The notes beneath the pieces were generated by a model, which saw only the letters and a list, made by a program, of their open reading frames with translations, did not search any database and was not told the origin of the DNA. Shown piece by piece: positions 6,482 to 10,696 of a DNA stretch of 64,000 nt; the first letter of the stretch is position 1, and each line of letters opens with the position of its first letter. Source of the DNA: Planctomyces sp. SH-PL62 (GTDB lineage Bacteria > Planctomycetota > Planctomycetia > Isosphaerales > Isosphaeraceae). A program made the position numbers and the translations under genes. The stretch lies in NCBI RefSeq assembly GCF_001610895.1, contig NZ_CP011273.1, positions 3,534,001-3,598,000 of the forward strand, written 5' to 3'.

Positions 6482-8434
6482 ATGTGCGGCATCGCCGGCG
6501 CCTACGACCTGACCGGCCAGCGTGAATTCCCCGCCCGCCGCCTGCTCGCCATGACCGCCGCGATCGCCCATCGCGGCCCCGACGACGAGCAGATCCACAT
6601 CGAGCCCGGCGTCGCGCTGGGGGCCCGCAGGCTGGCGATCATCGACCTCGCCGGCGGCCGACAGCCCCTCTCCAACGAGGACGGCTCGGTCTGGGTCGCC
6701 TTCAACGGCGAGCTGTTCGAATACCCGGAGCTTCGCCAGAAGCTCCTCGACCGCGGCCACCACCTGGCGACCCGCTGCGACACCGAGGCCTGGGTCCACC
6801 TCTACGAGGACCTCGGCGAGGGGATGTTCGAGCAGGCCCGGGGCCAGTTCGCCGTCTCGCTCTGGGACCGCAAGACCCGCACCTTGATCCTCGGCCGCGA
6901 CCGCATCGGCATCTGCCCGCTCTACTACGCGAAGGTCGACGGCTGGCTCCTCTGGGGCTCCGAGATCAAGGCGATCCTCGCCTCCGGGTTGGTCCGCGCC
7001 GAGGCCGACGTGCGCGGGATCGATCATCTGTTCACGTTCTTCTGCTCGGGTACCTCGCGGACCTTCTTCCAGGGGGTCTCCTCGATCCCCCCCGGCAACT
7101 TCCTGAAGGTGCGGGAAGACCGGATCGAACCGAAGGTGTACTGGGATCTGGATTTCCCCGACGCCGGCGACGAGATCCGAATGAGCGATCCGACGCCCCT
7201 CGTCGACGAGCTCCAGGGCCGCCTGGAGACGGCCGTCGAGCGACGGCTCCGCAGCGACGTGCCGGTCGTCACCTACATCAGCGGCGGGCTCGACTCGACC
7301 GTCGTCCTGGGCCTTTGCAGCCGGCTCCGCAAGGACCCGATCCCCGCCTTCACCATCGGCCTGGACCGGGCGGGACCCGACGAGCGCGCGCATGCGGCCG
7401 AGGCCGCCGAGACCCTCGGCTCTCCCCTGACCACGATCGTCATGGATCGCTCGCGGGTCGCCGAGGCGTTCCCCGAACTGGTCCTCGCGGCCGAGGGGCC
7501 GATCGTGGACACGTCGTGCGCGGCCTTGCTCCGCCTGGCCCAGGCCGTCCACCAGCAGGGCTACAAGGTCACGCTCACCGGCGAGGGCGCCGACGAGGCG
7601 CTCGCCGGCTACATCTGGTACAAGACCCAGAAAGTCCGCGACGCCGCGTATCGGGTCGTCGGTCGGACGCTCCCCCGGATGGCTCGGAACCTGATCGGCC
7701 GTTCGATCAGCGGCCGACGGTTCGCCGTCCCCCCCGAGGGGGCCGTCCACGGCGTCCGCACGGCCCAGCAAGACATGTACGAGATGATCTCGCAGTGCAA
7801 GCCGATCCTCTACTCCGACGGCATGCAGCTGAGGCTCGACGGCCACGACCCGTACGCCGATCTCGACGTCCCCAACGAGCGCATGTCGCGCTGGGATCCG
7901 CTCAACCAGTCGCTCTACCTCGGCTACAAGGTGATGCTCGCCGGCCTCCTGATGATCTCCAAGGGAGACCGGATCGCCATGAATTCATCCGTCGAGGCCC
8001 GCTATCCGTTCCTGGACGACGACGTGGTCTCGTTCGCCGCCGGGATCGCCCCGGAATACAAGCTGCGCGGGATGACCGAGAAATGGATCCTCCGGCGCGT
8101 CGCCGAGCGGATCCTGCCGAAGCAGATCGCCAACCGCCCCAAGACGATGTTCCGCACCAGCATGTCCGGGACGTTCCTCGGCCCGCACCGCCCCCATTGG
8201 GTCGACCAACTCCTGAGCCCCGAATCGCTCGCGAAGACCGGCTACTTCGACCCCGAAGGGGTCCGCAGGCAGAGGCTTCGCCAGACGCGGATCCCCAGGG
8301 TGACCATCCCTCGGTTGACCTACGACGTCGGCCTGACCTGCGTCGTCACCACCCAGCTCTGGCACCACCTCTACTGCGGCGGCGGCCTCTGCGACCTCCC
8401 CACCTGGGCCCCTCCCATCCTCCCGGCCGACTGA
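6482..8434 (+). CDS. asnB: Asparagine synthase (glutamine-hydrolysing)
   Basis: A 650-aa class II amidotransferase. The initiator Met is followed by Cys2 (MCGIAG), the glutaminase nucleophile. The glutaminase domain occupies roughly residues 1-200 and includes RGPDDE, RLAIIDL and FNGELFEY. The synthetase domain has the PP-loop SGGLDST at 267-273, which activates the acceptor carboxylate as an AMP ester. The reaction is ATP-dependent amide formation using glutamine nitrogen. The start is fixed by the Cys2 requirement. The gene follows the C-N hydrolase and the small membrane protein closely on the same strand. True asparagine synthesis is the default role; AsnB paralogues also modify envelope or secondary-metabolite substrates. 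Confidence 0.93.
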   Translation: MCGIAGAYDLTGQREFPARRLLAMTAAIAHRGPDDEQIHIEPGVALGARRLAIIDLAGGRQPLSNEDGSVWVAFNGELFEYPELRQKLLDRGHHLATRCDTEAWVHLYEDLGEGMFEQARGQFAVSLWDRKTRTLILGRDRIGICPLYYAKVDGWLLWGSEIKAILASGLVRAEADVRGIDHLFTFFCSGTSRTFFQGVSSIPPGNFLKVREDRIEPKVYWDLDFPDAGDEIRMSDPTPLVDELQGRLETAVERRLRSDVPVVTYISGGLDSTVVLGLCSRLRKDPIPAFTIGLDRAGPDERAHAAEAAETLGSPLTTIVMDRSRVAEAFPELVLAAEGPIVDTSCAALLRLAQAVHQQGYKVTLTGEGADEALAGYIWYKTQKVRDAAYRVVGRTLPRMARNLIGRSISGRRFAVPPEGAVHGVRTAQQDMYEMISQCKPILYSDGMQLRLDGHDPYADLDVPNERMSRWDPLNQSLYLGYKVMLAGLLMISKGDRIAMNSSVEARYPFLDDDVVSFAAGIAPEYKLRGMTEKWILRRVAERILPKQIANRPKTMFRTSMSGTFLGPHRPHWVDQLLSPESLAKTGYFDPEGVRRQRLRQTRIPRVTIPRLTYDVGLTCVVTTQLWHHLYCGGGLCDLPTWAPPILPAD

Positions 8435-9234: not shown

Positions 9235-10158
9235 TCAGGGCGTTTTCGACGAAGCCGCGGCGCGGCGGGGGCGCAGGGCGGCTCCCAGCACGACGGCGGC
9301 GGCACCGGCCAGGGCCAGGGACGCCGGTTCGGGCACGGCGGCGGGGGGCAGGCGGTAGGTGAGGTCGTCCACTGCGAAGTAGGCGGGCGTGTTCATCCCA
9401 TAGCGGCCCACGTCGGAGGAGGTCAGGTTGAACGAGAGCTGCGACGCGCCGGCCAGGGACGACAGATCCATGTAGGCCCACGTATCGAGGACGTAGTCCA
9501 GCGAATTGTCGTCGAAGCGGTAGTCGGCCAGGTAGAAATCGACGGAGGTCCCCAGGAGCGAGCCCGCCGCGGTGACTCCGTAGGCCGTGAGCTTGAACCA
9601 GTCGGCGTCGTCGCCGGAGTCGCCGCCGAACTTCTTGGCGAAGGAGTCGCCGTTGAGCATCGAGAGGGCGGCGTAGGTCGTGTTGGTGACGAACATCCCC
9701 GCGAGGGACGCCCCGGTCGGGATCGAGAACGTCGGCAGGCCTGCCAGGTCCGCCGGGTTCGCGGGGGCGAAGGGCGGGTTCCTGTACCCGCTGGCGACGC
9801 CGAAGTTGCCGCCCGAGTGCGCCGAGCCGGCGTAGGCGGAGAGCTCGTTGCCGTATCCGGCGGTCGTCGCGTCCGTCCGGTTCGAATAGCCGAAGCCGCT
9901 CCAGGTGGAGACGCCCTGTCCGTAGTCGGCGAAGCGGTTCGCGAATTCCGCCCCCCCCGAGGCGAACGTCCCCGTCCAGACGGTCGAGCCCCAGGAGCCG
10001 GGGGCGGAGGTCGCTCCCGACATCGGGCCGGCGGTGGCGGAGTCGGGGGAGAGGCTCAGATCCTCGAAGTCGACGACGCCGGCGCGGGCGGCGGGAGCCA
10101 GGCCGAGGAGGCCGACGAAGACCAGGGATGTCACAAGAGAAAGTGATCGCGATTTCAT
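9235..10158 (-). CDS. PEP-CTERM-anchored DUF4465 protein, B12-riboswitch controlled
   Basis: A 307-aa exported protein. Residues 1-26 are a signal peptide ending APAARA. The C terminus has the PEP-CTERM sorting signal: VPEPAS at 275-280, a hydrophobic stretch, then RPRR. The body matches the DUF4465 pattern: FEDLSL at the start, WSGFGYSNRTD, NELSAYAG, then DWFKLTAYG, VDFYLADYR, DTWAYMDLSSL and LTSSDVGRYGMNTPAYFAVDDL. The leader holds a cobalamin riboswitch, so expression should fall when cobalamin is plentiful. As I recall, DUF4465 proteins recur in Bacteroidota cobamide-uptake loci. I therefore infer a surface protein that binds or helps capture B12. No other B12 transport gene is adjacent. 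Confidence 0.9.
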   Translation of the reverse strand: MKSRSLSLVTSLVFVGLLGLAPAARAGVVDFEDLSLSPDSATAGPMSGATSAPGSWGSTVWTGTFASGGAEFANRFADYGQGVSTWSGFGYSNRTDATTAGYGNELSAYAGSAHSGGNFGVASGYRNPPFAPANPADLAGLPTFSIPTGASLAGMFVTNTTYAALSMLNGDSFAKKFGGDSGDDADWFKLTAYGVTAAGSLLGTSVDFYLADYRFDDNSLDYVLDTWAYMDLSSLAGASQLSFNLTSSDVGRYGMNTPAYFAVDDLTYRLPPAAVPEPASLALAGAAAVVLGAALRPRRAAASSKTP

Positions 10159-10500
10159 CTAATGGAATCCTGAAGACATCGAAAGCGTGGAAGCGAAGGC
10201 CGCGGAGCCGCCTCGGCGCGCAAGGCGACCGGGCCGGCTCGCGACGGGGCGTCGACCGGGAGGGATAAAGAGACGGCGCGCACGACCGCTCAATGCCCGG
10301 CTAGGAGGTCCGGGCGAGGCGTGCGGCCCGCGCGACGAGCAAGGCGCGCCGGAAGGCGCGCGAGAGCTTACGAGGGAGCTACCATCATGGGGACCTTTCC
10401 GCCGGGACGGGCAGCGTGGCGGAGGCGCGACCGTCCCGGGCGCACGCCGAGCGGACGATCCGCTGAGGCGTTCACCGAGGATGCAGGCGGTCGGGCATCC
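10159..10500 (-). promoter_or_regulatory. Long leader between riboswitch and DUF4465 start
   Basis: About 340 transcribed bases separate the aptamer from the start codon. On the minus strand it contains a hairpin GCGCGCC-TTCC-GGCGCGC (10344-10361), a smaller ggatgc/gcatcc hairpin near 10490 and agcgga-tcg-tccgct near 10465. None is followed by a clean T run. The leader may hold the expression platform, but I cannot tell whether control is by termination or at translation. No open frame here looks coding. Confidence 0.4.
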
Positions 10501-10696
10501 TGACAGCTCTCGACGGGCAGGTCTTCTGGCTCTCGGCTCATGACGGCTTTCGGACGGCCTTCCCGCCCCCGTGGGGGGCAGTGGCCCTGCGGTCCGAAGC
10601 CTGGCCGATTACAGCGGCGGCCCCGCGCCGGATTCTCACCGGCTTCCCTATTCTCCCCCCCGAGCGGCCTCGGCCTGGGGCACCTGTCGAGCTAGC
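10501..10696 (-). ncRNA. Cobalamin riboswitch
   Basis: Read on the minus strand, the classic B12 aptamer elements occur in order: ACAGGTGCC near the 5' end, GGGAAGCCGGTGAGAATCC, GCCGCTGTAA, GCCACTG, GGCGGGAAGG and the B12 box AGCCAGAAGACCTGCC. Closing-stem halves CTCGAC and GTCGAG flank the aptamer. The aptamer binds adenosylcobalamin or a related cobamide and usually represses the downstream gene. Here that is the PEP-CTERM DUF4465 gene on the same strand; the gene at 10827 is on the other strand and is not its target. Confidence 0.97.

Follow-up and report, generated by a model that had tools for sequence, protein, structure and literature searches.

A cobalamin riboswitch upstream of a PEP-CTERM-tailed, BtuJ-like DUF4465 protein in Planctomyces sp. 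SH-PL62, and the same arrangement in other Planctomycetota

Described cobamide binders and a PEP-CTERM scavenger

The closest described relatives of the protein considered here are BtuJ1 and BtuJ2 of Bacteroides thetaiotaomicron (IPR027828; PDB codes 9FCT, 9QPM and 9I2L), which are secreted and controlled by a cobalamin riboswitch (PMC12751083). The DUF4465 protein encoded in the window, i.e., the whole 64-kb stretch of the Planctomyces sp. SH-PL62 genome that was analysed, is similar to them in family, fold and tyrosines, and also in riboswitch control and secretion; however, the BtuJ proteins are lipoproteins encoded together with the TonB-dependent BtuB and with BtuCDF, whereas the window protein ends in a PEP-CTERM tail, is encoded by a solitary gene and belongs to an order in which no TonB plug domain was found. 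Two members of the same family come from the PVC group, D5EK51 (Coraliomargarita) and 'Pan' (Mucisphaera calidilacus), and B12 binding has been demonstrated for both; altogether, eight diverse DUF4465 proteins were reported to bind B12, the M. calidilacus protein being the one from a planctomycete, and the residues Tyr146 and Tyr245 of BtuJ1, together with the NTPAY motif, are the conserved B12-binding features of the family (PMC13398666). Cobamide binding is a published function of DUF4465, so a cobamide-capturing protein of this family is not new in kind. The text of PMC13398666 does not contain the words PEP-CTERM, exosortase or sorting, and no published combination of DUF4465 with PEP-CTERM was found in the literature searched; a search for PEP-CTERM proteins or planctomycetes in connection with a cobalamin riboswitch, mostly without subscription journals and preprints, returned no relevant paper.

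The zinc-scavenging protein ZepA, which occurs in the PVC group too, is likewise a PEP-CTERM exoprotein that collects a micronutrient under nutrient-responsive control, and it was found in the exoproteome (PMC10957091). ZepA is unrelated to DUF4465, handles zinc rather than cobamide and is regulated by Zur and not by a riboswitch; it is nevertheless a working precedent for a PEP-CTERM exoprotein acting as a scavenger.

The riboswitch and the DUF4465 gene of the window

A covariance-model search (cmscan) placed a complete RF00174 cobalamin aptamer at 10702-10499 (-) (89.6 bits, E 7.9e-21, model positions 1-189; gathering score 31.5 bits). It was the sole Rfam match over threshold in the 64-kb window, and a chance aptamer was rejected since the score is far over the cutoff. 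The DUF4465 gene is the first same-strand gene behind the aptamer, with a distance of 340 nt to the start codon. An earlier note on this DNA, made from the letters alone, had recognised both the aptamer and its control of the gene, and the searches agree with it, except that the aptamer runs slightly further than the end given there (10702 rather than 10696). Promoter and terminator scans and RNA folding revealed no convincing expression platform in the leader (10159-10498, -), where one weak terminator-like site (10289-10273) was found against 0.5 expected by shuffling and the folding z-score of -1.3 was uninformative. Repression by B12 would be expected, because this is known for cobalamin riboswitches and has been measured in Bacteroides.

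The open reading frame at 9235-10158 (-) encodes a protein of 307 aa that is predicted to be secreted and is BtuJ-like by Pfam profile and AlphaFold model. By inspection, it begins with a predicted Sec-type signal peptide (10081-10158, -; MKSRSLSLVTSLVFVGLLGLAPAARA) that has an AxA end and no lipobox cysteine. The DUF4465 domain occupies residues 84-266 (9361-9909, -) and scores 180.3 bits against a cutoff of 25 (PF14717, IPR027828). AlphaFold modelling (mean pLDDT 92.6) predicted the augmented jellyroll of BtuJ1 and D5EK51; structural comparison matched the model to B12-bound DUF4465 structures at Z-scores of 22.5–27.9, against 8.9 for the best unrelated fold. BtuJ1 (9qpm) aligned over 216 residues with a Z-score of 27.9 and an rmsd of 2.0, and D5EK51 (9hmu) gave a Z-score of 26.8. 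D5EK51 is also the best match of the protein among PDB sequences (E 7e-23). Alignment to the BtuJ1 chain 9fct showed that both conserved B12-contacting tyrosines and the NTPAY motif are kept: Tyr162 (9673-9675, -) corresponds to Tyr146 of BtuJ1 in loop DE, and Tyr260 (9379-9381, -), located in the NTPAY motif (MNTPAYF), corresponds to Tyr245 in loop HI. Judging by the fold model, the kept tyrosines and the binding relatives, the window protein very likely binds cobamide. The link between DUF4465 and cobamides that the earlier note pointed out is borne out by the literature (PMC13398666, PMC12751083) and its reading of a cobamide-capturing protein was, on the whole, mostly right; the part of its novelty that lay in the binding does not hold, as B12 binding by DUF4465 had already been published (PMC13398666).

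The C-terminal PEP-CTERM sorting tail (VPEPASLALAGAAAVVLGAALRPRR; residues 274-299; 9262-9339, -) has a score that is marginal on its own (PF07589, 21.4 bits, cutoff 20.7), and an NCBIfam search of the protein returned weak generic PEP-CTERM families, none of them reaching its cutoff. The hallmarks of a PEP-CTERM substrate are present, including the PEP motif, a hydrophobic stretch, a basic end and the predicted signal peptide; a PEP-type tail occurs in 44 of the 48 planctomycete DUF4465 proteins examined and, additional to these, in a protein of G167, where the tail is followed by an extension. The SH-PL62 genome contains three matches to exosortase (PF09721; up to 211 bits), and exosortase is found in all 45 genomes of Isosphaerales. 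The tail score and the like tails of the relatives support a protein directed to the envelope; the earlier note had stated outright that sorting puts it there, and from the sequence features we infer a surface location.

The gene next downstream lies on the opposite strand, and therefore the DUF4465 unit looks monocistronic. The flanking genes, both named by eye, are asparagine synthase-like (6482-8434, +) and sulfatase-like (11254, -), in keeping with the observation that no other B12 gene is nearby; the DUF4465 gene is solitary and unlinked to btuCDF.

Distribution of the arrangement and its recurrent partner genes

DUF4465 is rare across Planctomycetota at large (11/392 genomes) and common in Isosphaerales (29/45). 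When DUF4465 and riboswitch positions were paired genome by genome, 46 of the 50 planctomycete DUF4465 matches had a cobalamin riboswitch on the same strand 311-2398 nt upstream, the remaining four being cut by contig ends (three) or a fragment (one). In a GTDB set of 80 loci scanned with a 10-row alignment, the riboswitch was upstream in 56 of the 63 loci whose upstream sequence spans 2 kb or more. Both counts include related genomes, with a few genomes shared between the two sets, so they are not counts of independent events. Conversely, 34 of the 92 cobalamin riboswitches of Isosphaerales lead into DUF4465. The combination of riboswitch, DUF4465 and PEP-CTERM tail, whose co-occurrence the earlier note proposed to survey, is the rule in Planctomycetota; a one-off combination was rejected, as the arrangement is phylum-wide. 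The combination is undescribed in the literature searched, and it is not a local oddity. A cobamide-scavenging family known mainly as gut Bacteroidota lipoproteins is hereby extended to a phylum that apparently anchors it by exosortase sorting, and PEP-CTERM proteins thereby gain a concrete nutritional role.

The combination was also found in beta- and gammaproteobacteria, where DUF4465 members, e.g., those of Aquabacterium and Methyloversatilis, carry PEP-type or variant tails. DUF4465 of the Rhodopirellula type is often part of very large proteins, and some members from Phycisphaerae have a dockerin-like C-terminal sequence.

A second secreted family recurs in many DUF4465 loci and is sometimes fused with DUF4465 (L060, L061, L098 and many Pirellulaceae). 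The SH-PL62 copy is a 294-aa PEP-CTERM protein (L013:5542-6426) with no other Pfam domain and with the conserved GxDFAVFENxF motif; it is preceded by the riboswitch C1:651994-652184 (+). The predicted structure of the partner (pLDDT 76) resembles the B12-binding BtuH (7biz) with a Z-score of 13.0 and the BtuH-like part of BtuG1 (8blw) with one of 12.1, against 9.6 for the best unrelated structure; a PDB search with the partner as a single sequence gave no match, and the family profile matched 8blw at E 8.9e-5. The fold is that of the C-terminal B12-binding domain of BtuH and BtuG1 (7BIZ, 8BLW; PMC8941943), but the partner family differs from these in possessing PEP-CTERM or dockerin-like tails and in being without the BtuG propeller. 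Based on the modelling, the family is probably a second, BtuH-like cobamide binder.

Another recurrent neighbour is a DUF1559 pseudopilin-like gene, present within 1.6 kb of 27 of 47 DUF4465 ORFs on the same strand, versus 5 on the opposite strand; at least one of the opposite-strand copies, that of G137, is accompanied by a riboswitch of its own. In a tree of 79 pseudopilin-like proteins, with a small sample of truly unlinked copies, nearly all B12-linked copies fell into two groups (7 label changes versus 15.7 after shuffling), and the seemingly unlinked copies checked inside these groups (L103, L108, L075 and L090) adjoin riboswitches. Adjacency arising from the mere abundance of such genes was rejected on the strand bias and the tree grouping. 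A TolC-like gene stands behind DUF4465 in five of six Paludisphaera genomes; in SH-PL62, a second riboswitch–DUF4465–PEP-CTERM gene elsewhere in the genome is followed by a TolC-like gene, and the riboswitch C1:2064347-2064547 (+) leads into DUF1559 pseudopilin-like, TolC-like and GH116 glycosidase genes (L012:4684-10854). The pseudopilin-like and TolC-like genes are candidates only for the outer-membrane step considered below.

Cobamide economy and the proposed function

The 6.78-Mb genome of SH-PL62 contains seven cobalamin riboswitches, six of which are outside the window. One precedes a DUF1289/DUF6925 gene (L011:9950-10890, -; start approximate), followed by btuC, btuD and btuF, which were recognised as FecCD, ABC ATPase and Peripla_BP_2 genes. 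Around its PF02310 matches, SH-PL62 encodes proteins recognised by eye as MetH, methylmalonyl-CoA mutase and a B12-binding radical SAM protein, and CbiC, the one marker gene from which biosynthesis was judged, was not found in its genome; this gene content is typical of an organism that uses B12 and has to scavenge it. Among Isosphaerales, CbiC was found in 2 of the 29 genomes with DUF4465 and in 8 of the 16 without it (Fisher p 0.002, uncorrected for relatedness). FecCD exceeds its cutoff in just 13/45 genomes of the order, and therefore the inner-membrane step also varies across it.

B12, with a mass of about 1,350 Da, is normally pumped across the outer membrane by BtuB. The TonB plug domain (PF07715) was found in none of the 45 Isosphaerales genomes, several of them nearly complete and SH-PL62 included; this absence cannot be blamed on the method, because the same search detected PF07715 in 286/392 genomes from the phylum as a whole and in three genomes used as controls. 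BtuB, the usual partner of DUF4465, seems by these profile searches to be missing, while SH-PL62 has BtuCDF; perhaps the order has a receptor whose plug is highly divergent or lacking. What is new here is the phylum-wide linkage of the riboswitch with DUF4465 carrying PEP-type tails, the plug-less order, and the BtuH-fold and pseudopilin-like partners; the window feature is real and well supported, yet the gene by itself is of less interest than the system around it, the plug-less order and the recurring partners, which the earlier note had not noticed, being the more surprising part. They raise the testable question of how B12 crosses the outer membrane, with the riboswitch regulon as a candidate short list. 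A novel cobamide route across the outer membrane of planctomycetes without TonB receptors, composed of riboswitch-controlled, PEP-CTERM-anchored DUF4465 and BtuH-fold catchers, a B12-linked DUF1559 subfamily and the Paludisphaera TolC-like protein, can be put forward tentatively, and in this full form it is doubtful.

For the window protein itself, the likely function is that of a BtuJ-type catcher of cobamides that would be sorted by exosortase rather than lipidated and would feed uptake through an outer-membrane step of a non-TonB kind. At low intracellular cobalamin, the unliganded riboswitch would permit expression of DUF4465, and plentiful cobalamin would turn it off. The protein would be exported by the Sec pathway, its PEP-CTERM tail would be recognised by exosortase, and the mature protein would reach the outer envelope or the exopolymer, with exosortase sorting substituting for the lipid anchor of Bacteroidota, and would there retain scarce cobamides near the cell. 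Cobamides may then pass the outer membrane without a TonB-dependent receptor and be taken by the periplasmic BtuF and the BtuCD importer, whose genes are governed by another B12 riboswitch; the hand-over from the DUF4465 protein to BtuF would be part of the same scheme. The marginal PEP-CTERM score, the lack of a clear expression platform and the position of the solitary gene, unlinked to btuCDF and with no outer-membrane partner found for it, speak against it.

Exosortase cleavage of PEP-CTERM proteins is thought to happen on the outer side of the inner membrane (PMC10957091) and some DUF4465 relatives have no tail or have dockerin-like ends, which would suit a cobamide binder that is anchored by its tail in the inner membrane, or is periplasmic, and passes B12 to BtuF without being a surface catcher; this location is unlikely, however, given that the lipoproteins BtuJ1 and BtuJ2 of Bacteroidota act from extracellular vesicles (PMC12751083) and that the PEP-CTERM protein ZepA was detected among exoproteins (PMC10957091). 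Less probable still is a B12 sponge in the exopolymer, serving storage or denial of B12 to competitors outside any import: there is no linked outer-membrane transporter and the order has no TonB plug domain, as such a function would allow, but induction by the riboswitch at shortage, co-regulation with btuCDF and rarity in B12-making relatives better suit import. Binding of another ligand by the jellyroll, e.g., a sugar, with the riboswitch belonging to a wider B12-starvation response like that of the reductase and desaturase genes described below, could draw on a weak fold likeness to carbohydrate-binding modules (Z about 8-9) and on the SH-PL62 riboswitches that also govern genes unrelated to B12 uptake, but it is very improbable in view of the Z-score of 27.9 to B12-bound BtuJ1, the conservation of both binding tyrosines, the binding of B12 by all eight reported DUF4465 proteins and the repeated pairing with a BtuH-fold protein.

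Two further riboswitches of SH-PL62 precede such genes. The riboswitch C1:3468113-3468311 (-) is followed by the class I ribonucleotide reductase genes NrdAB (L010:5370-8781), an arrangement that is expected if a B12-dependent reductase serves when B12 is available; riboswitch loci with NrdA also occur in G418 and G428. The riboswitch C1:3469441-3469639 (-) directly precedes an acyl-ACP desaturase gene (L010:9358-10398; FA_desaturase_2, 416 bits), and G412 has another desaturase of the same family in one of its riboswitch loci (L104:2405-3403). A publication linking a cobalamin riboswitch with an acyl-ACP desaturase was not found. A small DUF1289-like ORF lies immediately behind DUF4465 in G418 (L056), and another is near a riboswitch in G399 (L103). 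The gene of the corrinoid adenosyltransferase BtuR/CobO (188 bits) is located immediately behind DUF4465 in G357 (L092:6658-7227), and a MetE-like gene for B12-independent methionine synthase, identified by eye, is situated within 3 kb of the riboswitch–DUF4465 gene in L093 (G105). Finally, two MAGs of deltaproteobacterial type contain a c-di-GMP-I riboswitch directly behind the cobalamin riboswitch (L148:2774-2851 and L176:1841-1923), and these pairs, possibly two-ligand tandems, are located upstream of DUF4465/BtuH-like genes.
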